A stretch of DNA of 64,000 nucleotides, taken from the NCBI RefSeq assembly GCF_007997225.1, contig NZ_VORM01000024.1:1-64000 (forward strand), in the 5' to 3' direction. Below, in pieces: positions 3,462 through 57,318 of the stretch. The notes beneath the pieces were generated by a model. That model ran no database searches. It saw only the letters and a list, made by a program, of their open reading frames with translations, and was not told the origin of the DNA. This DNA is from Subsaximicrobium wynnwilliamsii. GTDB taxonomy: Bacteria; Bacteroidota; Bacteroidia; Flavobacteriales; Flavobacteriaceae. Position 1 is the stretch's first letter; every line of letters starts with the position of its first letter. The translations under genes and the position numbers were made by a program.

Positions 3462-3583
3462 AGTTAAAAGTTAAAAGCACGAAGTACGAAGCACAAAGTG
3501 CAGATCTAAAAATCCCAACCTTGAATATTGAATATTGAATATTGAATATTGAATTTTGAACCTTGAACCTTGAACCTTGAACC
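3462..3583. repeat. Heptamer tandem arrays (GTTAAAA, AGCACGA, TTGAATA/TTGAACC)
   Basis: Between two convergent genes. GTTAAAA occurs twice, then AGCACGA/AGTACGA/AGCACAA. From 3521 to 3583 there are nine 7-bp units: four TTGAATA, one TTGAATT, four TTGAACC. The change of unit happens without loss of the 7-bp phase. A CTGCCGGCAG palindrome follows at 3587-3596. Confidence 0.9.
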
Positions 3584-3602
3584 TGCCTGCCGGCAGTGAA
3601 CA

Positions 3603-6109: not shown

Positions 6110-6122
6110 GCATTATAATTAA

Positions 6123-6206
6123 GTCTCCTGTCTCCGGTCTCCAGTCACCGGTCTCCTGTCTCCTGTCTCCAGTCTCCAGTCTCCTGTCTCCAGTCTCCGG
6201 TCTTTA
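6123..6206. repeat. Heptamer array GTCTCCN
   Basis: Twelve consecutive 7-bp units (GTCTCCT, GTCTCCA, GTCTCCG, one GTCACCG, last GTCTTTA), all in one phase. It begins about 13 bp after the permease stop codon. Confidence 0.9.
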
Positions 6207-14554: not shown

Positions 14555-15721
14555 ATGGACAGTAGGTACTTCACAGAGGAGCACGAATTATTTAGACAGA
14601 GTTTAAAAGATTTTTTACAGAAAGAGGTCGTCCCACACATTGATAAATGGGAAGAAACAGGCCACATTGAACGTTTCATTTGGAAGAAATTCGGTGATAT
14701 GGGTTTCTTTGGTATTCCTTATCCTGAGGAATTTGGTGGTCTCGATCTAGACCTTTTTTATACAGTTATTTTGCTAGAAGAACTTCAAAAAATAAATTCT
14801 GGTGGCTTCGCAGCAGCTATATGGGCGCATGCTTATTTGGCCATGACCCATTTAAATAAAGAAGGCGACCAAGCCATCAAGGAAAAATATTTGGCACCTA
14901 GCATCGCTGGCGATATGATTGGCTGTCTTTGCATAACCGAACCTTTTGGTGGTAGTGACGTTGCAGGAATGCGCAGCACTGCTGTTAAGAAAGGTGATAC
15001 CTATGTCATCAATGGTTCCAAAACCTTTATTACCAATGGTGTTTTGAGTGATTACTTGGTGGTTGCCGCTAAGACCTCACCAGAGTTGGGCAATAAGGGC
15101 CTTAGTATATTTGTGATTGATCGCGACACCCCAGGAATTTCAGCAACCAAATTGGATAAGTTGGGTTGGAGAGCTTCCGATACTGGGGAGATTGCTTTTG
15201 ACAATGTCACTATCCCTGCCTCCAACTTAATGGGTGAAGAGGATATGGGCTTTCCATACATCATGCAACATTTCGCGCTCGAACGTTTGATCATGGGCAT
15301 CAATGCACACGCAAGAGCAGAATTTGCCTTGGAATATGCTTTGGAGTATATGAAAACACGTGAAGCCTTCGGTAGAACGATTGATAAATTTCAGGCACTG
15401 CGTCATAAAATTGCCGATTTATATACCGAAATGGAGATCTGTAAAGAGTTCAATTATTCTGTGGCCTATCGTTTGAATAAGGGCGAATATGTGGTCAAGG
15501 AAGCGACCATGTCCAAACTGCAGTGCACCAAAATGTCTGATGAGGTCATTTACCAGTGTCTTCAGTTTTTGGGCGGCTATGGCTATATGGAAGATTACCC
15601 AATGGCAAGACTTTCCAGAGACAGTCGATTGGGCCCCATCGGCGGCGGCACTTCAGAAATCTTGAGAGAGATTATCGCCAAAATGGTAATCGACAAGAAA
15701 GATTACAAGCCAGCGACCTAG
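14555..15721 (+). CDS. Acyl-CoA dehydrogenase
   Basis: A 388-aa FAD enzyme that introduces the alpha-beta double bond in acyl-CoA thioesters. Signatures are CITEPFGGSDVAGM near residue 131, GSKTFITNG near 153, the helix LERLIMG near 241 (a Glu at this position is the catalytic base in isovaleryl- and long-chain-type enzymes) and QCLQFLGGYGYMEDYPMARL near 341. The MCAD-type C-terminal Glu is absent (IGGGTSEI instead). I prefer the ATG at 14555 over an upstream TTG at 14546. The last 12 codons are duplicated seven times downstream. Confidence 0.9.
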   Translation: MDSRYFTEEHELFRQSLKDFLQKEVVPHIDKWEETGHIERFIWKKFGDMGFFGIPYPEEFGGLDLDLFYTVILLEELQKINSGGFAAAIWAHAYLAMTHLNKEGDQAIKEKYLAPSIAGDMIGCLCITEPFGGSDVAGMRSTAVKKGDTYVINGSKTFITNGVLSDYLVVAAKTSPELGNKGLSIFVIDRDTPGISATKLDKLGWRASDTGEIAFDNVTIPASNLMGEEDMGFPYIMQHFALERLIMGINAHARAEFALEYALEYMKTREAFGRTIDKFQALRHKIADLYTEMEICKEFNYSVAYRLNKGEYVVKEATMSKLQCTKMSDEVIYQCLQFLGGYGYMEDYPMARLSRDSRLGPIGGGTSEILREIIAKMVIDKKDYKPAT

Positions 15722-16316
15722 TTTGATGATTATCATTTTGGCGAACATTGTTTTCAATTTGCCAAAATGCTAATCGACAAGAAAGATTACAAACCAGTGA
15801 CCTAATTTCAATGATTATCATTTTGGCGAACATTGTTTTCAATTCGCCAAAATGCTAATCGACAAGAAAGACTACAAGCCAGCGACCTAATTTTAATGAT
15901 TATCATTTTGGCGAACATTTTTTTCAATTTGTCAAAATGCTAATCGACAAGAAAGATTACAAGCCAGCGACCTAATTTCAATGATTATCATTTTGGCGAA
16001 CATTTTTTTCAATTCGCCAAAATGGTAATCGACAAGAAAGATTACAAGCCAGCGACCTAATTTCAATGATTATCATTTTGGCGAACATTGTTTTCAATTC
16101 GCGAAAATGCTAATCGACAAGAAAGACTACAAACCAGTGACCTAATTTCAATGATTATCATTTTGGCGAACATTTTTTTCAATTCGCCAAAATGCTAATC
16201 GACAAGAAAGACTACAAACCAGTGACCTAATTTCAATGATTATCATTTTGGCGAACATTTTTTTCAATTTGCCAAAATGCTAATCGACAAGAAAGATTAC
16301 AAGCCAGCGACTTAAA
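15722..16316 (+). repeat. Seven tandem 85-bp copies of the acyl-CoA dehydrogenase 3' end plus hairpin
   Basis: Copies of AATCGACAAGAAAG begin at 15772, 15857, 15942, 16027, 16112, 16197 and 16282; the gene's own copy is at 15688. The period is 85 bp (84 for the first). Each unit holds an ATG-started 12-codon frame reading M-(L/V)-I-D-K-K-D-Y-K-P-(A/V)-T and a stop, identical in meaning to the enzyme's C-terminus. Each also holds an inverted repeat ATTTTGGCGAA..TTCGCCAAAAT. Differences between copies are mostly synonymous (GAT/GAC, AAG/AAA) or C-to-T changes that keep G-U pairing in the stem. Confidence 0.95.
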
Positions 16317-20710: not shown

Positions 20711-20822
20711 CTAGCCCCTAGCCCCTAGCCCCTAGCCCCTAGCCTCTAGCGTCTAGCGTCTAGCCTCTAACTTCTGTCTTCTGTCTTCTGTCTTCCGTCT
20801 TCTGTCTTCCGTCTTCTATTTT
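20711..20822. repeat. Heptamer array CTAGCCC to CTGTCTT
   Basis: Sixteen consecutive 7-bp units in one unbroken phase: CTAGCCC four times, then CTAGCCT/CTAGCGT, CTAACTT, then CTGTCTT and CCGTCTT alternating. The unit sequence changes completely while the 7-bp register is kept. The rest of 20372-20883 has no recognisable gene. Confidence 0.9.
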
Positions 20823-38603: not shown

Positions 38604-38649
38604 AATCGTCAATCGTCAATCGTCAATCGTCAATCGTCAATCGTCAATC
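38604..38649. repeat. Heptamer array AATCGTC
   Basis: Six perfect 7-bp units plus a partial one, ending about 10 bp from the stop codon of the minus-strand hypothetical gene. Confidence 0.9.
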
Positions 38650-40416: not shown

Positions 40417-41187
40417 CTAGGCCTTAATGTTTTCAACAAAATCGGATATCTTTTCAGTACCATGTGAGGTCAAATGTTTGATAAACGCGCTTCCAATAAT
40501 GGCACCTTTAGCGTGTGTAGTTGCTTGTTTGAAACTATGCTCATCCTTGATCCCAAAGCCAACAATTTGTGGATGCTTCAGGTTTAAATCGGATATGCGC
40601 TTAAAATACGCTGTCTGTGCGTCGCCAAAACCATCGCCACTTCCTGTGACGCTCGCACTGCTTACCATATAAATAAAGCCTTCGGAAATAGAATCAATGT
40701 AATCAATGCGTTCCTTGGAGGTTTGCGGCGTGATTAAAAAGACGTTGATTAAGCCGTGTTTTTTGAAAACGGATTTGTACTGCTCATCATAGACATCCAC
40801 CGGAAGGTCTGGTATGATGAGACCGTCTACACCAACCTCCTTGCACTTGGCACAGAAGGCTTCCACACCATATTGTAACATCGGGTTGAAATAGCCCATG
40901 ATGATTAGTGGAATGGAAACTGTTTTCCGGATGTCTTTCAATTGATTGAAAAGCACGTCGGAGGTCATGCCATTTTTAAGAGCGGCGGTGGAGCTGGCTT
41001 GAATGGTTGGTCCATCGGCCAAGGGATCGCTAAATGGGAGTCCGATTTCTATCATATCCACGCCATTTTTTTCAAGGTCTTGAATAATGCTTGCGGTATC
41101 GCTTAAATTGGGATAGCCGGCGGAAAAATAGATGGATAGCAGTTTTCCGTCTTTATTTAGTTTTTCGTTGATTCTGTTCATATTCAT
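40417..41187 (-). CDS. trpA: Tryptophan synthase alpha chain
   Basis: A 256-aa TIM-barrel lyase that splits indole-3-glycerol phosphate to indole and glyceraldehyde 3-phosphate. Catalytic Glu is in VDMIEIGLPFSDPLADGP (near residue 47) and catalytic Asp in VDGLIIPDLPVD (near 128). The phosphate site is GFGIKDEHS near 213. The start is MNMNRINEKL or the Met two codons on. It is separated from trpB by 365 bp of repeat-rich DNA, unusual for this pair, which forms one enzyme complex. Confidence 0.97.
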   Translation of the reverse strand: MNMNRINEKLNKDGKLLSIYFSAGYPNLSDTASIIQDLEKNGVDMIEIGLPFSDPLADGPTIQASSTAALKNGMTSDVLFNQLKDIRKTVSIPLIIMGYFNPMLQYGVEAFCAKCKEVGVDGLIIPDLPVDVYDEQYKSVFKKHGLINVFLITPQTSKERIDYIDSISEGFIYMVSSASVTGSGDGFGDAQTAYFKRISDLNLKHPQIVGFGIKDEHSFKQATTHAKGAIIGSAFIKHLTSHGTEKISDFVENIKA

Positions 41188-41343
41188 TTCTTCGCGCTTG
41201 CCTGCCGGTAGGTAGGGAAGCGGGAATCTTTTTTAGGTTAAACTTTATGTTGTTGCGAACGCAGGACTCTTATTATGGTTAAACTTTGTCTGGTCTTAAA
41301 TACGCATTTGCCACGAATACACGAATTTTGTGCTCTCATTCTG

Positions 41344-41374
41344 GACCTGACAGATTTTTAAAACTTGTTAGGTC
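41344..41374. repeat. GACCT..AGGTC hairpin repeat, copy 4 (trpB-trpA spacer)
   Basis: GACCTGACAGATTTTT..AAAACTTGTTAGGTC, an imperfect member of the family. Confidence 0.7.
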
Positions 41375-41417
41375 TTTTGCAATCGGGTGCCTGCGTTAAG
41401 GATTGAAAGGTTTGTTT

Positions 41418-41454
41418 GAGCTCTCCCGCTTTTTTTAGCGGGAAGCGAGCCTTG
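41418..41454. repeat. CCCGC..GCGGG hairpin in the trpB-trpA spacer
   Basis: GAGCTCTCCCGC pairs with GCGGGAAGCGAGC around a T-rich loop. It may slow or stop polymerase between trpB and trpA. Confidence 0.55.
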
Positions 41455-41472
41455 AAAGCCTGACATTTTACG

Positions 41473-41505
41473 ATCCTGCAAGGTTTTTTTCAAACCTTGC
41501 AGGTA
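41473..41505. repeat. Hairpin repeat, copy 5 (trpB-trpA spacer)
   Basis: ATCCTGCAAGGTTTTTTT..AAACCTTGCAGGTAT, a near-perfect inverted repeat 48 bp downstream of the trpB stop on the minus strand. Confidence 0.7.
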
Positions 41506-41552
41506 TGAGTAAAATGTAACGCCCAAATCATTAAACACACCATTCTAGCATC

Positions 41553-42734
41553 CTACAAATCAAAATATTCAATATAATTCTGTAAATCCTTATCGCCTCT
41601 GCCCGAAAGATTAATTACCACAATATCTTCTGGTTTAAAGGTTTTGTATTTGAAAATTGCCAAGGAATGCGCGGTCTCAATGGCAGGAATGATGCCTTCG
41701 GTCTTGCTGAGTTCTAGGCCAGCTAGCATCGCGTCATCATCGGTAATGGCCATAAATTCTGCACGTCCGGTTTTATAAAGATGTGCGTGCATTGGGCCAA
41801 CACCAGGATAATCTAATCCTGCCGAAATGGAATAAGGCTCGGTTATTTGTCCGTCTTTGGTTTGCATCAACAAGGTTTTACTGCCGTGAATAATGCCTTC
41901 CTTGCCCAAGATGGAGGTTGCAGCGCTCTCGCCAGAATCGACGCCCTTACCAGCAGCTTCCACCGCGATGAGTTTGACATCGGTATCTTCCAAATAATGG
42001 TAAAAAGCACCAGCAGCATTACTGCCACCACCCACGCAGGCCACGACATAGGTAGGCTTTTCAGTGCCTTCCTTCTCCTTTAATTGCCATTGGATTTCTT
42101 CGGAAACGATTGCCTGAAAACGTGCCACCATATCGGGGTAAGGATGTGGGCCAACGACGCTGCCAATGATGTAATGCGTATCTACAGGGTTGTTGATCCA
42201 ATCGCGAATGGCCTCATTGGTGGCATCTTTGAGGGTACGGCTTCCAGAAAGTGCAGGCACTACTTTAGCACCCAGCATTTTCATGCGTGCCACATTTGGG
42301 GCTTGGCGTGCGATGTCGATTTCGCCCATGTAAACGATGCATTCCATGCCCATCAAGGCGCAAACGGTAGCAGTGGCCACCCCATGTTGCCCAGCACCAG
42401 TTTCCGCAATGATACGTGTTTTGCCCAAGCGCTGTGCCATAAGGATTTGCCCAACGGTATTGTTGATCTTGTGTGCACCTGTATGATTGAGGTCTTCGCG
42501 TTTAAGGTAGATTTTAGTCTTGTATTTGGCGCTCATGCGTTTGGCGAAATACAAAGGCGAAGGTCTGCCAACGTAATCTTTTAGGAGTTGGTCAAATGCT
42601 TCTTTAAAGGAAGGTTCGGCCATAATCTTTAAATAATTTAGGCGCAGTTCCTCTACATTTGGATAAAGCATTTCTGGGATGTAAGCCCCTCCAAATTCGC
42701 CGTAATACCCTTTTTCGTTGATGTTGTATGTCAT
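41553..42734 (-). CDS. trpB: Tryptophan synthase beta chain
   Basis: A 393-aa PLP enzyme that joins indole and serine to tryptophan. The PLP Lys is in [20 protein letters not shown] (near residue 76); the phosphate loop is [16 protein letters not shown] near 226; [14 protein letters not shown] is near 104. I choose the internal ATG at 42734 ([18 protein letters not shown]), the usual N-terminus. The 15 extra codons up to 42779 read through a spacer palindrome (TTCCTGCGGAAACAGGAA) and are unlikely to be coding. Confidence 0.97.
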
Positions 42735-42783
42735 AGCTCTTATTCCTGCGGAAACAGGAACCTCATGTTTATTGTTCAAATTC

Positions 42784-43485
42784 TCAGTTTGAACCGATTA
42801 ATTTATTTTTAAATACTCCAAGTGTTTTAGAATCCTTCCGGCCAGCCTCTATTTCAAATTTACTGTTAAGGTCAATCGCGTAACAATAGGCTGCAGCTTC
42901 GGTTTTTAAGAATACATTTAAAAGTTCGGCTTCTTCCAGACCAATGCCACCGCTTAAGAAATAGGGTTTGGTGGACGGGTAATTGTTTAAAATAGTCCAG
43001 CTGAAAGCATAACCGTTTCCACCGGGTAATTTGCCTTTGGTGTCAAATAAATAGTAATTGCAGCAGTCTTCAAAATGCTGTAATACTGAAAAATCAAAAT
43101 CGTCTCCAATGCTGAAGGCCTTGATGATTGTTAGCGACTGTTCAAAAAACCTTTCCATCTGGGCTACGAGTTCCTTAATAAATTCTGGTGTTTCATTACC
43201 GTGCAATTGAATGGCTTGCAGCTCATGGATGTTCGCTTTTTCGACAATGTGTTCTACGGAAGCATTTACAAAAACACCTACTTTTTTGATGCTTTTGGGT
43301 AACTTCGGAATAAGGTCGTTAAAAAAGCGGCTCGATTTTTCATAGAAAATAAACCCCAAATAATCTGGTTGCAATGCGGCAACTTCGAGGATATTCTCGG
43401 GATGTTTCATACCGCAGATTTTGAGCTTTAGTGGTTGCCGCTCAAAACTTGAGGTTTGTTTTATGGTTTTGTTTTCCGTTTTCAT
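42784..43485 (-). CDS. trpF: Phosphoribosylanthranilate isomerase
   Basis: A 233-aa TIM-barrel isomerase acting after TrpD. Catalytic Cys is in [14 protein letters not shown] (near residue 25) and catalytic Asp in [19 protein letters not shown] (near 147). [11 protein letters not shown] is near 48, and the C-terminal phosphate site is FLSGGIG near 176. The N-terminus is about 18 residues longer than usual, because no later Met exists before KLKICGM. A downstream non-ATG start is possible. Confidence 0.94.
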
Positions 43486-43575
43486 TTTGAAATGTTATCA
43501 TTATACGCTCTACTTGACCATTATTCAATCCAATCATTTGAGTCACTAGAATCAATAGCTTTAAAAATTTACTTT

Positions 43576-43606
43576 AGGTCTCTAGGGTTTTGAAAACCCG
43601 AAAGGA
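43576..43606. repeat. Hairpin repeat, copy 6 (trpC-trpF spacer)
   Basis: AGGTCTCTAGGGTTTTG..AAAACCCGAAAGGAC, a degenerate inverted repeat of the same design, 15 bp after the trpC stop on the minus strand. Confidence 0.6.
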
Positions 43607-43621
43607 CATTATGGTAAATTT

Positions 43622-44410
43622 TCAAATGGAAGCCAGCGCTTTAATAAAAGCTGCAGCACTTTTCCCTGGATCTTTGGTTTTCATGAAATTCTCGCCAATC
43701 AAAAAGCCTTTGTAACCATAAGGCTGTAAGCTTTTGATGGCATCTATGGAACTGATCCCGCTTTCAGACACCTTTACAAAATAATCTGGAATCAATTGGC
43801 TTAGTCGTTTACTGGTTTCCAAACTAACCTCAAAAGTCTTCAGATTTCGATTATTAACGCCCAAAAGGTCCAAGCTCGGCATGATGGATTTTTGCAATTC
43901 TGCTTCGTTGTGCACTTCCAAGAGTACTTCGAGTTGTAGGCTTTTCGCCAATTCTGAAAACGCTTTTATTTCAGCCTTGGTTAAAATGGAAGCAATCAAT
44001 AAAATGGCATCGGCGCCAATGGCCTTGGCTTCTATGATTTGATACTCATCAATGATAAATTCCTTTCGCAATATCGGTAAATTGCAGTTTTCACGGGCCA
44101 TTAAAAGATCGTCCATGGTGCCGCCAAAATGAATTTCATCAGTTAAAACGGACATCCCAGAAACGCCGGCCTCTTCATAGCCTTCTGCGATGCTTTCGAT
44201 ATCTGCCGTTTCATTGATCCATGATTTTGAAGGCGACTTGCGTTTAAATTCAGCAATAATACCGGGGTCATTGTCCCTAACCCGTTGTGCTAAACTTAAA
44301 GTTTGCCTCGTGAAATAGGGCAATTGCTCAAATGCTTTGATAGGAATGAACTCTTTTTTTAGAGCCACTTCCTTGTGCTTGTCCTTAACGATTTGTTCAA
44401 GTATGTCCAT
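43622..44410 (-). CDS. trpC: Indole-3-glycerol phosphate synthase
   Basis: A 262-aa TIM-barrel enzyme that closes the indole ring. Typical residues are in DPGIIAEFKRKSPSKSWI near 48, LPILRKEFIIDEYQIIEAKA near 108, LLGVNNRNLKTFEV near 177 and KVSESGISS near 207. It is full length with a canonical N-terminus (MDILEQIVKDKHKEVA). The spacer to trpD is filled by a heptamer array. Confidence 0.97.
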   Translation of the reverse strand: MDILEQIVKDKHKEVALKKEFIPIKAFEQLPYFTRQTLSLAQRVRDNDPGIIAEFKRKSPSKSWINETADIESIAEGYEEAGVSGMSVLTDEIHFGGTMDDLLMARENCNLPILRKEFIIDEYQIIEAKAIGADAILLIASILTKAEIKAFSELAKSLQLEVLLEVHNEAELQKSIMPSLDLLGVNNRNLKTFEVSLETSKRLSQLIPDYFVKVSESGISSIDAIKSLQPYGYKGFLIGENFMKTKDPGKSAAAFIKALASI

Positions 44411-44419
44411 TTTTTAAAA

Positions 44420-44553
44420 TTCAATGTTCAATGTTCCAAATTTGTTTTTATTTTACCCACAGCCCACAGCCCACAGCCCACAGCCCACAGCTCACAACTC
44501 ACAGCTCACATCTCAAAGCTCACAGCTCACAACCCACAACTCACAACTCAACT
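44420..44553. repeat. Heptamer arrays TTCAATG and CCCACAG/CTCACAA (trpD-trpC spacer)
   Basis: TTCAATG twice (from 44420). Then, from 44456, about fourteen 7-bp units: five CCCACAG, then CTCACAA, CTCACAG, CTCACAT, CTCAAAG and similar, all in one phase. The trpD stop codon (44548-44550) and its last codons lie inside the array. Confidence 0.9.
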
Positions 44554-45537
44554 CAATTCAATCAGCCGTTTCAAGCTTTTTAGTGCTTCGCCACTTTGCA
44601 AACTCTCTTTTGCCAATTCAAATCCGGTTTCGTGGGAGATTCCGTTTACGGTGGCAATGGCGAGGCCTGCGTTGGCACAGACGACGTTATTTTGGGCTTC
44701 GCTACCTTTTCCTGAGATGATTTGCTTGAAGATTTTGGTTGCGTCTTCTACGGTATTTCCTCCAAAGATTTTATCGGCTTCAATCGTTTCTAAATTCAAA
44801 TCTGACGGACTGAACATGCGTTCGGTTTTGTTGGAAATGATTTTGGCATCGCCGGTAAGTGAAATCTCATCATAACCATCCAAGGCATGTACAATGCTGT
44901 AATTCTTATCGGTGTTTTGATAGAGATAGGCATACAAGCGCTGCAGTTCCAAACTAAATACACCTACCATTTGATTTGGTGGAAAGGCTGGATTCACCAT
45001 AGGCCCCAACATGTTAAAAAAGGTCTTGACCCCTAACTCCCGTCTAATGGGAGCCACATGTTTCATCGCAGGATGAAATAAAGGCGCGTGCATGACACAA
45101 ATGCCTGCTTGGTCAATACTTCGTTTTAGCGCGTCTTCATTATTAGTGAATTTAACGCCAAGCGCTTCCATCACGTTTGAGGATCCCGAGGCTGAAGAGA
45201 CGCCATAATTGCCATGTTTGGCGACTTTAACCCCTGCACCTGCAGTCACAACCGAAGCCAATGTTGAAATGTTGAAGGTGTTCTTTCCGTCGCCGCCGGT
45301 GCCGCAGAGGTCGATGGCGTTGAAATTTGATAAATCCACAGCAATGCAAAGTTCTAAAAGGGCGTCACGGAAGCCTTGTAATTCCTCCAACGTGATATTT
45401 CGCATCATATAAACCGTCAAGAAAGACGACATCTGACTTTGGTTATAAATGCCTTCAGACATGTTGACCAATACATTTTTGGCTTCTTCCGCGGAAATAC
45501 TTTCTTGATTTATGAGTCTGTTTAATATATTTTTCAT
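44548..45537 (-). CDS. trpD: Anthranilate phosphoribosyltransferase
   Basis: A 329-aa enzyme that adds phosphoribosyl from PRPP to anthranilate. The PRPP loop is LCGTGGDGKNTFNIST (near residue 78); the anthranilate site is VAKHGNYGVSSASGSSNVME near 104; the metal site DGYDEISL is near 219. Length is normal. The last residues (IELS, stop) are encoded by heptamer-array DNA, so the array has probably replaced the original 3' end. Confidence 0.97.
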   Translation of the reverse strand: MKNILNRLINQESISAEEAKNVLVNMSEGIYNQSQMSSFLTVYMMRNITLEELQGFRDALLELCIAVDLSNFNAIDLCGTGGDGKNTFNISTLASVVTAGAGVKVAKHGNYGVSSASGSSNVMEALGVKFTNNEDALKRSIDQAGICVMHAPLFHPAMKHVAPIRRELGVKTFFNMLGPMVNPAFPPNQMVGVFSLELQRLYAYLYQNTDKNYSIVHALDGYDEISLTGDAKIISNKTERMFSPSDLNLETIEADKIFGGNTVEDATKIFKQIISGKGSEAQNNVVCANAGLAIATVNGISHETGFELAKESLQSGEALKSLKRLIELS

Positions 45538-45756
45538 GCTAATGCCTTCGAAGGCAGGTATCTTTGTGTTGTTAGTTCAATTTTGAATATGGCTGAATGT
45601 TTTCAATTTCAGCTTAAACCTTTCCATAGGAAAGGGAATTTGTTTTAAATTCTTTTTTCAATTTTTGATGGTGCTCAAACCCATAACTGGTTGATTTCTT
45701 TGGCTGCTCAGGTTGCTTTCTGAAAACCATAGTATTCAACTATAAAACGCCTGATT

Positions 45757-46362
45757 CTAACTATGGCTAGGCAGTTTCGCAGGAATGCGGACCCAATTTG
45801 CCAAAAGCTGTTTTCCGTTAGGTGTCAGTACACTTTCTGGATGAAATTGCACGCCTTTTACATCGTAAAATTTATGGCGCAGAGACATTATTTGTCCGTT
45901 TTCATCAAAGGAGGTGGCTTCTAGAACGTCGGGTAACTTGGTGTCTACCACCCAAGAATGGTAACGCCCAACGTCAAAGCTTTTTTCCATGTCATCAAAT
46001 AAAGATTCATCATCAACGGTCACGGTAAGGGTTGTAGCAACGCCATGAAAGACTTCCTCGAGGTTGATGATCTTTCCGCCAAAAACCTCGCCGATGGCCT
46101 GCTGCCCCAAACAGACTCCCAAAATACTTTTAGTGGGCGCGTAGGTTGCGATAATGGCCTTTAACAAACCAGCTTCATCGGGAACACCAGGTCCAGGCGA
46201 AAGCACGATTTTATCAAAAGCCTCAACCTCCTCCAAATTTAGCTTGTCGTTACGCTTAACGGTAACCTTACAGTCCAAATCCTCTAAATAATGCACCAGA
46301 TTGAAAGTAAAACTGTCGTAATTATCAATGACTAATATATTGTTCATTTCTGTGTTGTTCAA
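45757..46362 (-). CDS. trpG: Anthranilate synthase component II (glutamine amidotransferase)
   Basis: A 201-aa class I glutaminase that supplies ammonia to TrpE. Nucleophile Cys is in SILGVCLGQQAIGEVFGG (near residue 79); catalytic His and Glu are in VKGVQFHPESVLTPNG (near 173). The N-terminus is IDNYDSFTFNLVHYLEDL. An internal ATG at 46347 (MNNILVIDNYD) is also plausible and closer to homologues. The spacer to trpD is about 220 bp and contains the palindrome at 45543-45556. Confidence 0.96.
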   Translation of the reverse strand: MNNTEMNNILVIDNYDSFTFNLVHYLEDLDCKVTVKRNDKLNLEEVEAFDKIVLSPGPGVPDEAGLLKAIIATYAPTKSILGVCLGQQAIGEVFGGKIINLEEVFHGVATTLTVTVDDESLFDDMEKSFDVGRYHSWVVDTKLPDVLEATSFDENGQIMSLRHKFYDVKGVQFHPESVLTPNGKQLLANWVRIPAKLPSHS

Positions 46363-46372
46363 TGTTTATAAA

Positions 46373-46460
46373 TTCAAAATTCAAAATTCAAAAATCCAAT
46401 GTAAATTTCAATTTCCATAGTATAGGAACTAATCCCTAATCCCTCATGCCTAATCCCTAT
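46373..46460. repeat. Heptamer arrays TTCAAAA and CTAATCC (trpE-trpG spacer)
   Basis: TTCAAAA three times (46373-46393). CTAATCC, CTAATCC, CTCATGC, CTAATCC, CTAT (46429-46460). The trpE stop codon (46457-46459 on the minus strand) is formed by the last unit. Confidence 0.85.
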
Positions 46461-47854
46461 ATCGTTTCCGCCAATTCTATCGCCTTGGTCAAAGCCCCTA
46501 ACTTGTTATAAACCTCTTGCAATTCATCTTCGGGTTTGGATTTGGAAACAATGCCTGCACCAGCTTGCCAATGCAGTTGATGGTCTTTGCTTAAAAAAGT
46601 ACGAATCATGATGGCGTGGTTGTAATTGCCGTTGAAATCCATAAAACCGATGGCGCCACCATAATAAGTGCGGTTTGTTTTTTCATAAGCTTCAATAAGT
46701 TGCATGGCTCTGTGTTTTGGCGCGCCGCTCAAAGTGCCCGCAGGGAAGGTGTCTGCGACCACTTGCAACGTTGGCGTGTTCTCGTGGATTTTACCCGTGA
46801 CTTTACTTACCAAATGGATGACGTGCGAGAAAAACTGGGCTTCTCTATAGGTCTCCACCTTCACTTGACTGCCATGACGGCTCAAATCGTTTCTTGCCAA
46901 ATCTACCAACATCACGTGTTCTGCATTTTCTTTATCGTCTGCAGCCAGTTTTTTGGCGAGTTCGGCATCTTGTTCATCATTTCCTGTTCTTCGGAAGGTG
47001 CCTGCAATGGGGTGGATTTCTGCCAGCCCGTCTTTTACCACAAGCTGTGCTTCTGGCGAACTCCCGAAAATCTTGAAGTTTCCGTAGTCAAAATAAAAAA
47101 GATAGGGCGAAGGGTTGATGCTTCTCAAGGCGCGATAGACGTTAAACTCATCGCCTTTAAATTGCTGTGAGAATTTTTTTGAAAGCACCAATTGAAACAC
47201 ATCGCCACGAGCGCAGTGCTGCTTGGCCAATTCTACATTTTCCTTATATGCTTCATCACTTAAATTGGATTCAATATCCCCATCTGAAGCAAAATTGTAG
47301 GAAGCGAAATTTTTGGACTTGATGAGCTGAAGAATGTCGTCTATATTATTTTCAGCCTCAAAACAATGCGCAAAAATATAGGCCTCATTTTTAAAATGAT
47401 TGATGGCGATGATGTTTTGATAGACCGCATAATAAATATCGGGTATCTCAAGTGAATTCGGCTTTTTTGAGATTTCTACATCCTCAAAATATTTAACCGC
47501 GTCATAAGCGGTGTAGCCAAAAATACCGTTGTTGATAAACTTGAACTGGTTGTCGCTATCCACTTTAAAGCGCTTGGTGAATTTATGGATTTCTTCAGTG
47601 ACCGATATGTTTTGTGCATTATTGGTTTTTGTGCTGCCATCCGGATAGCGTTGTTCAATGACCTCGTTTTGCACCTTGATGCTGGCAATGGGATTAAAAC
47701 AGATGTAGGAAAAACTATTATCACTGGCGTGGTAGTCACTACTTTCCAACAGGATGCTGTTTGGGTATTTGTCCCTTATTTTGAGATAGATGCTCACAGG
47801 TGTTATGGTGTCTGCAAGAATTTTTTTGTAATGGGTATAAAGACTGAATGTTTT
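46457..47854 (-). CDS. trpE: Anthranilate synthase component I
   Basis: A 465-aa enzyme that converts chorismate to anthranilate. The Trp feedback site has the LLES motif (NSILLESSDYHASDN near residue 33). The catalytic domain shows FQLVLSKKFSQQF near 220, PSPYLFYFDYGNFKIFGSSP near 250, HPIAGTFRRTGNDEQD near 282, TFPAGTLSGAPKHRAM near 374 and YYGGAIGFMDFNGNYNHA near 400. I prefer the ATG at 47854 (MKTFSLYTHYKKIL); an in-frame ATG at 47899 lies closer to the attenuator. Allosteric inhibition and leader attenuation would both respond to tryptophan. Confidence 0.95.
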   Translation of the reverse strand, partial: KTFSLYTHYKKILADTITPVSIYLKIRDKYPNSILLESSDYHASDNSFSYICFNPIASIKVQNEVIEQRYPDGSTKTNNAQNISVTEEIHKFTKRFKVDSDNQFKFINNGIFGYTAYDAVKYFEDVEISKKPNSLEIPDIYYAVYQNIIAINHFKNEAYIFAHCFEAENNIDDILQLIKSKNFASYNFASDGDIESNLSDEAYKENVELAKQHCARGDVFQLVLSKKFSQQFKGDEFNVYRALRSINPSPYLFYFDYGNFKIFGSSPEAQLVVKDGLAEIHPIAGTFRRTGNDEQDAELAKKLAADDKENAEHVMLVDLARNDLSRHGSQVKVETYREAQFFSHVIHLVSKVTGKIHENTPTLQVVADTFPAGTLSGAPKHRAMQLIEAYEKTNRTYYGGAIGFMDFNGNYNHAIMIRTFLSKDHQLHWQAGAGIVSKSKPEDELQEVYNKLGALTKAIELAETI

Positions 47855-47920
47855 CATTGCGGATTCGATTCTGTTTAAATTCCCATTAATTTGGGACATT
47901 ATTCATTTTGAATTTCTGAC

Positions 47921-48010
47921 AAAAAAAAGGCTTGTCGTGAATGACAAGCCTTTTTTGTATGTTCAATTAAAAGATACAATAGCGATGTTTCACGAATGCG
48001 ATTCCTGAAA
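47921..48010 (-). promoter_or_regulatory. trp operon transcription attenuator
   Basis: Read on the minus strand. Segment 1 (48010-48001, directly after the Trp codons) pairs with segment 2 (47997-47988) as TTTCA/TGAAA and GAAT/ATTC around a CGC loop. Segment 2 also contains TCGTGAA (47995-47989), complementary to TTCACGA (47941-47935) in the terminator hairpin. The terminator is GGCTTGTC/GACAAGCC (47950-47929) followed by eight T. This is the arrangement of protector, antiterminator and terminator seen in leader-peptide attenuators. Confidence 0.8.
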
Positions 48011-48046
48011 ATTCCACCACCAAGTATGATTTAATATTGTGTTCAT
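47990..48046 (-). CDS. trp leader peptide, 18 aa with three Trp codons
   Basis: ATG at 48044-48046, stop TGA at 47990-47992. The peptide is MNTILNHTWWWNFQESHS, with three consecutive TGG codons at positions 9-11. It starts about 15 nt after the -7 element, so the untranslated leader is very short, and it ends at the base of the attenuator structures. A ribosome stalled on the Trp codons would cover segment 1 and favour read-through into trpE. A ribosome reaching the stop codon would cover segment 2 and favour termination. There is no Shine-Dalgarno; the upstream bases are TTTATAAAAACT. Confidence 0.88.
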   Translation of the reverse strand: MNTILNHTWWWNFQESHS

Positions 48047-48061
48047 AGTTTTTATAAAGCT

Positions 48062-48091
48062 CAAAGGTAAAGATGTAAACTCGGTTTTCAA
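48062..48091 (-). promoter_or_regulatory. trp operon promoter
   Basis: On the minus strand: TTG (48091-48089), 19-bp spacer, TACCTTTG (48069-48062), matching the Bacteroidota consensus. Confidence 0.8.
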
Positions 48092-48141: not shown

Positions 48142-48714
48142 TTAGAATTTTAAACTGACCATAAGATCAAATTCATCGTAGATCGCTTTATCCTTTAGGT
48201 TGTCAAAAAAGCTTGCTGAACCATATCTGATGTCATATTTGGTGCGATCCACCTTCAAGTTGGCAGTGGCAGTATTGTTATTTACCATCATGTCAAAGCT
48301 TAGTGGATGTGTAATGCCTTTAATCGTCATGTCTCCTGTTACTTTGTAATTACCAGCTTTACCAGTAACTTTAGTCATTTTGAAATTGGCAGTTTTGTGA
48401 TTGGCAGTACCAAAAAAATCATCGGAATTTAAATGACCTTCCAATTTTTCCTTGCCATCTCCCGTTTCTAGGTCGGTAACGCTAATGCTGCTCATGTCTA
48501 TAACGATGTTGCCACCAGTAAGTGTTTCGCCTTCAAACAGCAATGTGCCTTCAGATAGATTGATGTTTCCTTCATGAGATCCTGTGACTTTGTGGCCTTT
48601 CCAAGTGACTGAGCTTTCTTCTGTTTTGATTTTCTTTTCAGAAAGCGATGTAAAAGAAACCAGTGTGATGGTTAAGGCCAAGACTGCTGCAGATTTAAAA
48701 ATTGTTTTTTTCAT
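48142..48714 (-). CDS. YceI family protein
   Basis: A 190-aa protein with a signal peptide (residues 1-22, LALTITLVSFTSLS) and a lipocalin-like YceI beta-barrel (SSVTWKGHKVTGSHEGNINL, LNSDDFFGTANHKTANFKMT, GDMTIKGITHPLSFDM). The family binds isoprenoid or other amphipathic molecules in the periplasm. It lies 12 bp after the MarR gene and is therefore probably controlled by it. Confidence 0.92.
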   Translation of the reverse strand: MKKTIFKSAAVLALTITLVSFTSLSEKKIKTEESSVTWKGHKVTGSHEGNINLSEGTLLFEGETLTGGNIVIDMSSISVTDLETGDGKEKLEGHLNSDDFFGTANHKTANFKMTKVTGKAGNYKVTGDMTIKGITHPLSFDMMVNNNTATANLKVDRTKYDIRYGSASFFDNLKDKAIYDEFDLMVSLKF

Positions 48715-55946: not shown

Positions 55947-56253
55947 AATAAAAAGTACAGTTGGCAGCACCGTGTATAATCAATTGGTTATAGACTACTT
56001 ACGAAACTCCTCGCGGATTTTCTATTCGGTTTTTATTTGCTAAATTACGTGCTTAAACACGCAACTAATCATAGTGTGCCAAGAAGTAGCCACGGCATTA
56101 AACTGGCTGCATGCTGTAGATAAGATGATGGTAGGTCGATCAGAGTCGTTGTATAGGCGATGGCTCTAAACCACCCAAAGGTGCTGTTGTAAAGAGCAAT
56201 GGTATTGAGCGTTTAGGAGAATCCAATCCATGAGGTTGGCAGGTATGAATAAA

Positions 56254-56273
56254 CCTGCCTGCCGGCAGGCAGG
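56254..56273. repeat. Palindrome CCTGCCTGCCGGCAGGCAGG inside the intron
   Basis: Perfect 20-bp palindrome extending the stem next to the candidate EBS1 loop. Same family as 35878-35893. Confidence 0.85.
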
Positions 56274-56633
56274 GGAGTTGATCCGTCTGAGGCGGAGAAC
56301 CATTGAAGAGGTGTCGAGAAGTTGCTGCCTCCAGTCGAAAGCTACTGGGCGGAGCGTAAAGAAAATGTCCTGCGGACATTTTTAGCGATCGAGCCAGCTG
56401 GCGTGGATGGCTGTAAGGAGCGAAAAGTAATGTTAAAGATAACATTAATTACAGAGAGTGCCTATTTATTTTCGGTAAGGCTGGCGTCATTAGATGGCAA
56501 GAACTTTATTCGGGCTTATTTACGGAACTTGGTAAGCTGCATATAAAAGATAAGGGAAATGCTCAATGGGTACACCCCAGAGGCAAAATACCGATAGTGT
56601 ATGCAGTGGCAGTCTAAGCCGTAGTAGTGACGA

Positions 56634-56651
56634 TCCCGATAGCTATCGGGA
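56634..56651. repeat. Palindrome TCCCGATAGCTATCGGGA, copy 2, inside the intron
   Basis: Identical to 405-422. It interrupts the intron segment GTAGTAGTGACGA..CTGTAATGG. Confidence 0.85.
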
Positions 56652-56808
56652 CTGTAATGGAAATGGAGCGAAGGGCTTAGCTAATTTGGAATACAGTTTG
56701 CCAACTTGAAAGAGGATGAGCTTATATTTGTTGCAAATTAGAAGAGCCGTGTGAGGGGAGACTTTCAAGCATGGTGCTGTGAGAGGCTTGGGGCGAAATT
56801 CCCCTTAT

Positions 56809-57318
56809 CTACTCGATCACAAACACGTTATGTTTGATGAGATTTTGTTCAAAAGCGGGCATATGGCGCGTCTCAATTGATTTGACTGCATTTGAGATTG
56901 TCTTCTTGCCATAAAATGAAATGATTTCATTTGTATTACCTCGCTCTAAAATTCTTTTGATAATTGCCTTTTTATTTTTATTCCAGTCAATTTTATCAAT
57001 AGTTGTATCCCAAAAAATCACTGCTCTGAAAGTCTTGATATTTGGTGTTTTTTTTAGTTCAGATTGAGAGGCCTTTTTTACGTCATGGCTAGCCTGTAAT
57101 AGCATAAAATAATCTTCCTCTACATTAAAGTGTTTAGAAAGCTTTATGGATAGCTTTGGGTTGATATCCCTTCTTTTATTGAGAAGTGCACTAATGGTTT
57201 GTTTGTGCTCACCAATAGAAGTGGCTAATTCAATACCTTTCAAGCTTTGAGCTTTTAGTTCCCTTTTTAGGATAGCACCCGGATGCACACCTTTGACTTT
57301 AGCTAATTCTGGTAACAT
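56809..57318 (-). CDS. HigA-type HTH protein with C-terminal DUF6922-like domain
   Basis: A 169-aa protein. The HTH lies at residues 10-65 (VHPGAILKRELKAQSLKGIE, ATSIGEHKQTISALLNKRRD). From about 95 a second domain reads FRAVIFWDTTIDKIDWNKNK, AIIKRILERGNTNEIISFYG, the pattern of DUF6922, which often accompanies AbiEii toxins. The last two residues and stop (IE, TAG) come from the group II intron; the ancestral ending was probably VYD-stop. A perfect inverted repeat at 57357-57376 upstream is the likely self-binding operator. Confidence 0.8.
   Translation of the reverse strand: MLPELAKVKGVHPGAILKRELKAQSLKGIELATSIGEHKQTISALLNKRRDINPKLSIKLSKHFNVEEDYFMLLQASHDVKKASQSELKKTPNIKTFRAVIFWDTTIDKIDWNKNKKAIIKRILERGNTNEIISFYGKKTISNAVKSIETRHMPAFEQNLIKHNVFVIE

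Follow-up and report, generated by a model that had tools for sequence, protein, structure and literature searches.

Does the short minus-strand reading frame with tryptophan codons in front of trpE control the tryptophan operon of this genome, and how would such control work on a leader that has no Shine-Dalgarno (SD) site? The first-pass annotation of the window (the whole 64,000-nt stretch of DNA analyzed here) had read the locus as a complete attenuator following the logic of the Escherichia coli trp leader. We evaluated this reading part by part, both in the window and in related loci.

Architecture of the trp leader and its operon

The promoter consists of a −33 element TTTG (48092–48089), a 19-nt spacer, and the −7 element TACCTTTG (48069–48062; TAnnTTTG), all on the minus strand. 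In F. johnsoniae, passages of PMC6847099 place many transcription starts 4 or 5 nt past the −7 element, a spacing which would put the start of the leader RNA at 48056–48057 (minus). The leader peptide ORF, 18 codons plus TGA, occupies 47990–48046 on the same strand (MNTILNHTWWWNFQESHS) and is supported by relatives, with an ATG at 48046, three Trp codons at 48014–48022 as control codons, and the stop codon TGA at 47992–47990. Further downstream, an intrinsic terminator (47921–47950, minus), supported by its letters, its fold, and a stem that covaries in relatives, is formed by the arms GGCTTGTC (47950–47943) and GACAAGCC (47936–47929) around the loop ATTCAC and is followed by eight T (47928–47921), with an A run at 47956–47951 able to lengthen the stem. 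A terminator scan of the window did not include this minus-strand terminator in its list. Promoter, 18-codon leader, alternative pairing, and terminator are thus real and lie before trpE where the first-pass annotation had placed them, with the letters correctly read.

The region as a whole has a folding energy of −39.8 kcal/mol, compared to a mean of −19.97 for 200 shuffles, none of which was as good (z −5.94). Both the Rfam structure and the single-sequence fold place a leader hairpin at approximately 47966–48035 (minus), with the Trp codons inside its 5′ arm, so that the earlier description of a hairpin starting directly after these codons was wrong. The other half of that description held: the 3′ arm of the inner stem hides the segment TCGTGAA (47989–47995, minus; hereafter 2a), which overlaps the leader stop codon. 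Segment 2a can alternatively pair with TTCACGA (47935–47941, minus), i.e., the terminator loop and the first bases of the 3′ arm, as indicated by pairing and covariation. Folding predicts that a second segment, 2b (ACAnnGCT, 47981–47988, minus), pairs with the terminator 5′ arm, its predicted partners being TGT (47946–47944) and GGC (47950–47948). Since the pairing of TCGTGAA with TTCACGA is by itself only mildly unusual in the window (p about 0.03 against shuffles), the weight of the antiterminator case is carried by relatives.

The trp genes behind the leader span 40417–47899 on the minus strand in the order trpEGDCFBA. Matches over an NCBIfam curated cut-off identify trpG (45757–46362), trpD (44548–45537), trpC (43622–44410), trpB (41553–42779), and trpA (40417–41187). 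For trpE (46457–47899) and trpF (42784–43485) the assignment is to the best NCBIfam match, under the curated cut-off in both cases (TIGR00564, 432 bits, for trpE, which relatives also support). The true start of trpE is probably the ATG at 47857 (MKTFSLY), as in relatives, instead of the upstream ATG at 47899. Separately, short arrays of tandem repeats, all with a period of 7 but differing in unit, were seen within the operon, at 44458–44550 (trpC–trpD) and at 46370–46393 and 46429–46459 (trpG–trpE), as well as elsewhere in the window (3517–3584, 6122–6203, 20711–20817, and 38604–38649).

Family membership and published descriptions

The element is a member of Rfam family RF01692 (Bacteroid-trp) and as such is catalogued, not new. 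It aligns over the full model (1–131) at 47943–48066 on the minus strand with a covariance score of 57.8 bits (gathering score 49), contains a short ORF with Trp codons, and precedes trp genes in Bacteroidota, the phylum to which both promoter type and family match point. The model includes the AUG and UGG codons, a hairpin carrying a UCGU segment, and the terminator 5′ arm, where it stops; the terminator loop and 3′ arm, and with them the antiterminator partner, lie outside it, and this partner and the promoter boxes are examined here. Because all of these parts belong to the search model, their conservation among the loci is partly selected for, whereas the terminator loop and 3′ arm provide an independent test of the pairing proposed in the first-pass annotation, since the model ends before them.

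In 2010, Weinberg et al. (PMC2864571) included Bacteroid-trp in their motif table as a candidate cis-regulatory element of Bacteroidetes. In 2019, it was likened to the E. coli trp leader and described as a conserved element upstream of the trp operon of F. psychrophilum (passages of PMC6414381), and passages of PMC9723704 report strong indications of attenuation by leader peptides upstream of amino-acid operons in this species. The available passages of PMC2965389 mention neither tryptophan nor Bacteroidetes, and those of PMC4833913 and PMC3160421 do not treat the Bacteroid-trp element. Both the element and its reading as an attenuator are thus already in print, the mechanism having previously been suggested, and the bipartite antiterminator and leaderless subgroup predicted below are modest additions to what we found published.

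Distribution and sample of loci

RF01692 was detected at E ≤ 0.001 in 23/23 genomes of the genus, 141/199 of the family, and 42/395 of the phylum, although the large searches ran stricter filters and their misses are partly technical. A trpD match was present in 183 of the 199 family genomes, 139 of which had the leader; two genomes had the leader and no trpD match (G191 and G194). Together, the genus, family, and phylum searches yielded 193 distinct places, of which 160 were read and the other 33 left out. The loci read comprise all 23 from the genus, the 30 best of the family search, a further 27 of the phylum search, and another 80 picked by hand, including the weakest. The leader was hand-picked in seven loci (L054, L059, L077, L120, L141, L144, and L145), and its start was shortened in L092.

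All 160 leaders contain adjacent Trp codons, three in 154 cases and two in the remaining 6, and begin with ATG (155), TTG (3), or GTG (2). Likewise, all 160 precede trp genes, the neighbor being trpE in 154 loci, trpB in 4 (L054, L059, L077, and L141), and trpD in 2 (L144 and L145). These last six loci are all outside the family of the window, and in L054, L059, and L077 trpE is found about 1.3 kb further on. In the 154 loci with adjacent trpE, the gene is on the leader's strand, and the distance from leader stop to first matched residue is 40–329 nt.

Conservation and covariation of the antiterminator

For each of 159 loci, we took the best pairing of the RNA past the Trp codons with the loop plus 3′ arm of the terminator; L077 was omitted because its terminator loop is longer than the limit of the terminator finder. 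This pairing was better than shuffles at p < 0.05 in 134/159 loci and failed to be so in 25/159, and the motif CGTGA was present in 136/159. In a covariation alignment of 91 dereplicated sequences, the six core pairs of TCGTGA with TCACGA correspond to 546 pair cells, 96.2% of which are standard pairs. Two-sided changes were seen in seven cells distributed over 3/6 core pairs, and matched changes include TCGCAA with TTGCGA in L111 and TCGTAA with TTACGA in L137. The antiterminator covariation score was reached by none of 500 shuffles. Sliding the alignment by +3 columns gave an equally high covariation score (0.112 vs 0.111), yet only 49.6% of cells were then paired. For comparison, the terminator stem displays two-sided changes in 8/10 pairs. 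The consensus fold of the same 91-sequence alignment recovered the terminator only and no leader hairpin, and support for this hairpin comes from the Rfam model and single-sequence folds instead of the alignment consensus.

The pairing keeps a nearly constant distance from the stall site: it begins 16–20 nt past the last Trp codon in 150/159 loci, and in 151/159 its end falls in the range of −4 to +12 nt relative to the first base of the stop codon. The footprint assumed for a ribosome extends about 12 nt past the first base of its A-site codon and 15 nt before it, and with this footprint the antiterminator would be covered by a ribosome parked at the stop codon in 151/159 loci. Meanwhile, the reading frame of CGTGA shifts between loci (frames 1, 2, and 0 in 98, 36, and 2 of the 136). 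A near-fixed distance from the stall site combined with a shifting frame is what an RNA switch demands and what a conserved peptide would not give, and conservation of function in the C-terminal part of the peptide was rejected on the ground that the frame of the motif is not conserved. The comparison of relatives suggested along with the first-pass annotation thus came out in its favor: adjacent Trp codons throughout, a TCGTGAA/TTCACGA pairing conserved with compensatory changes, and a covarying terminator.

Computed folding states and the second segment

We computed, at 25 °C, how partial transcripts that reach as far as the antiterminator partner fold in 146/159 loci, the 13 others (L059, L133, L134, L135, L139, L140, L142, L143, L144, L145, L146, L151, and L157) being dropped for weak or misplaced pairing. 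With a ribosome on the Trp codons, the antiterminator had P > 0.5 in 145/146 loci, compared to 56/146 without a ribosome and 1/146 with a ribosome at the stop codon; the corresponding probabilities for the window were 0.93 (stalled), 0.00 (free), and 0.00 (at stop). Default termination is therefore not clear everywhere, since the antiterminator is predicted to form without a ribosome in these 56 loci. For the full-length RNA at equilibrium, terminator P exceeded 0.5 in 145 or 146 of the 146 loci in every state, including 145/146 with a stalled ribosome. As equilibrium favors the terminator even then, the antiterminator would have to be kinetically trapped.

In these folds, the bases just past TCGTGA (segment 2b) also pair with the terminator 5′ arm, the part of the terminator that emerges first. 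With this arm alone transcribed, 2b pairing is above the shuffle mean in 76/81 loci (mean P 0.552 vs 0.286), with only 11 loci individually passing 1 of 30 shuffles. With the loop transcribed as well, 71/81 are above the shuffle mean (0.635 vs 0.515), and 2 loci individually pass. These tallies cover 81 of the 91 dereplicated loci and are not independent, the loci being related. The antiterminator thus probably occupies the terminator 5′ arm as well, and early pairing of 2b with this arm possibly aids the kinetic switch.

Promoter, initiation, and a predicted leaderless subgroup

Within the 64 kb of the window, the promoter pattern was found 2 times vs 1.37 expected, which alone is not beyond chance; a separate promoter scan models sigma-70 and does not suit Bacteroidota. 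The pattern is conserved, however: a TAnnTTTG box lies ≤60 nt from the start codon in 155/160 loci, and an exact TTTG is found at 19-nt spacing in 80/155 of these, compared to 15 loci at 20, 3 at 18, and none at six other spacings. The claim that the leader starts without an SD site was borne out, as only 8/160 loci have an SD-like tetramer within 20 nt, and in 5 of these 8 the tetramer is a GAGG arising where the −7 box ends. The most common base at both −3 (96/160) and −6 (81/160) is A, in agreement with the relevant passages of PMC6847099.

In the window, the −7 box is separated from the ATG by 15 nt, the predicted 5′ UTR is 10–11 nt long, and the leader is thus not predicted to be leaderless in the sense of a start codon at the RNA 5′ end. 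Among the 155 loci, however, this gap is only 4–6 nt in 26, 22 of which have exactly 5 nt; the gaps also show a broad second peak near 15–19 nt. With a transcription start 4–5 nt past the −7 box, the RNA of these 26 loci would begin on the start codon or one base away from it, and they are predicted to be leaderless. An exact TTTG at spacing 19 is present in 14/26 of them, and by genus, using the median gap, the short-gap class comprises 25/111. On a TrpE tree (FastTree, 154 loci, 152 labelled), the leaderless label requires at least 11 changes, vs 21–26 in ten shuffles of the label, and must therefore have changed repeatedly.

Published shares of leaderless mRNAs or very short 5′ UTRs are lower than 26/155: 5.5% of mRNAs are leaderless in F. 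psychrophilum (passages of PMC9723704), about 3.7% have a 5′ UTR under 10 nt in Bacteroides thetaiotaomicron (passages of PMC7366714), and 13%, by subtraction, have one of 10 nt or less in F. johnsoniae (passages of PMC6847099). A leaderless trp leader is known from S. meliloti (passages of PMC7298713), where the RNA begins with the leader ATG, which is also the prediction for the 26/155 family loci; this leader differs in phylum and promoter type, and also from the window leader with its 5′ UTR of predicted 10–11 nt. We found no report of leaderless trp leaders in Bacteroidota in the literature searched, a scope that excludes most subscription papers. We lean towards the view that part of the Bacteroid-trp family is leaderless, attenuation there operating on (nearly) leaderless mRNA with an antiterminator that would fill both terminator arms and the loop.

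Proposed mechanism and alternative explanations

We consider this RF01692 member, with high confidence, to be a ribosome-controlled transcription attenuator of trpEGDCFBA. It has a terminator with a covarying stem before the first structural gene, and sequence, covariation, geometry, and partial-transcript folding together indicate an exclusive antiterminator that would be covered by a ribosome at the stop codon and freed upon stalling. What the ribosome does, how the antiterminator is trapped kinetically, and how the operon responds to tryptophan are inferred as follows. Transcription would start about 10–11 nt upstream of the leader ATG, and a ribosome would load the leader without an SD site. 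With ample Trp-tRNA, the ribosome would reach the stop codon and cover TCGTGAA, the terminator would form, and the polymerase would halt before trpE. With scarce Trp-tRNA, the ribosome would stall on the Trp codons and open the leader hairpin; in the segment thus freed, ACAnnGCT would be the first to pair, with the terminator 5′ arm; TCGTGAA would follow, pairing with the loop and the first bases of the 3′ arm, and the polymerase would read on. If no ribosome loads, the leader hairpin would hide TCGTGAA, leading to termination by default.

In E. coli trpL, a short leader carries the Trp codons, a hairpin hides the antiterminator, and the terminator is mutually exclusive with the latter. The window shares these features, as well as a stop codon positioned to let a terminating ribosome cover the switch segment, and the Trp codons, covarying antiterminator, and terminator of relatives support the E. 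coli-type logic originally proposed. Unlike trpL, however, the window leader has no SD site and has three Trp codons instead of two, and its antiterminator pairs with the loop of the terminator and, according to the folds, with both of its arms, whereas that of E. coli pairs with the 5′ arm alone.

Could the terminator simply serve the gene upstream? The ORF at 48142–48714 is encoded on the leader's strand, its end lying about 50 nt upstream of the promoter, so that a constitutive intrinsic terminator of this gene, followed by a chance ORF and, by coincidence, trpE, would fit the local layout. A conserved promoter separates this ORF from the leader, however, adjacent Trp codons are found in 160/160 loci, and the antiterminator covaries; on these grounds we rejected a plain terminator and regard it as the least probable of the explanations considered. 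Sensing of tryptophan without a ribosome, with either a tRNA-binding T-box or a TRAP-like protein deciding on the terminator, has precedents, as both T-boxes and TRAP control trp genes in other bacteria. The T-box version was rejected: Rfam cmscan reports none in the window, nor in the leader region at E up to 1. Beyond this, an open frame and Trp codons at a near-fixed distance from the antiterminator make sense only with translation, which makes any ribosome-free sensing very unlikely.

An attenuated leader RNA or leader peptide might also have a further role in trans, similar to rnTrpL/peTrpL of Sinorhizobium meliloti. A terminated RNA of about 135 nt would be expected here, and the passages of PMC7298713 provide the precedent; the C-terminal part of the peptide varies, however, and the RNA motif occurs in differing frames, both of which argue against a conserved peptide function, though not against a role of the RNA. 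We consider such an additional role improbable, if slightly less so than the two preceding explanations, and retain ribosome-controlled attenuation as the reading of this locus.

Other candidate leaders and side observations

In the same genome, a candidate His leader, MTTIQFHHHFHTGHQAS (L165; G000:C88, about 129395–129342, minus), is followed by a terminator directly before hisG, and a candidate Phe leader, MLANTTYFNWFYFFFSKKSEALYV (L168; G000:C45, about 101036–100962, minus), by a terminator and a gene that carries a prephenate dehydratase domain. Among the four operons inspected in this genome, no convincing leader was seen upstream of ilvD or of the aspartokinase–homoserine dehydrogenase gene. 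Within the window, an 85-base unit is repeated 7.6 times at 15675–16315 (94% match), its consensus carrying the inverted repeat CGCCAAAATG ... CATTTTGGCG, and group II intron matches to RF01999 (56127–56244) and RF00029 (56742–56817) lie at 56127–56817 on the plus strand.

Implications

With the comparative loci, a mere catalogue entry becomes a model that names its switch segments and can be tested. Attenuation paced by a ribosome needs prompt and regular initiation at the leader, and it is kept across a large bacterial family that lacks SD sites. Since S. meliloti already provides an example of a leaderless trp leader, leaderless members of the Bacteroid-trp family would be an extension and not a new principle. 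These predicted members would allow different modes of initiation to be compared, as in a natural experiment, in a single regulatory element.
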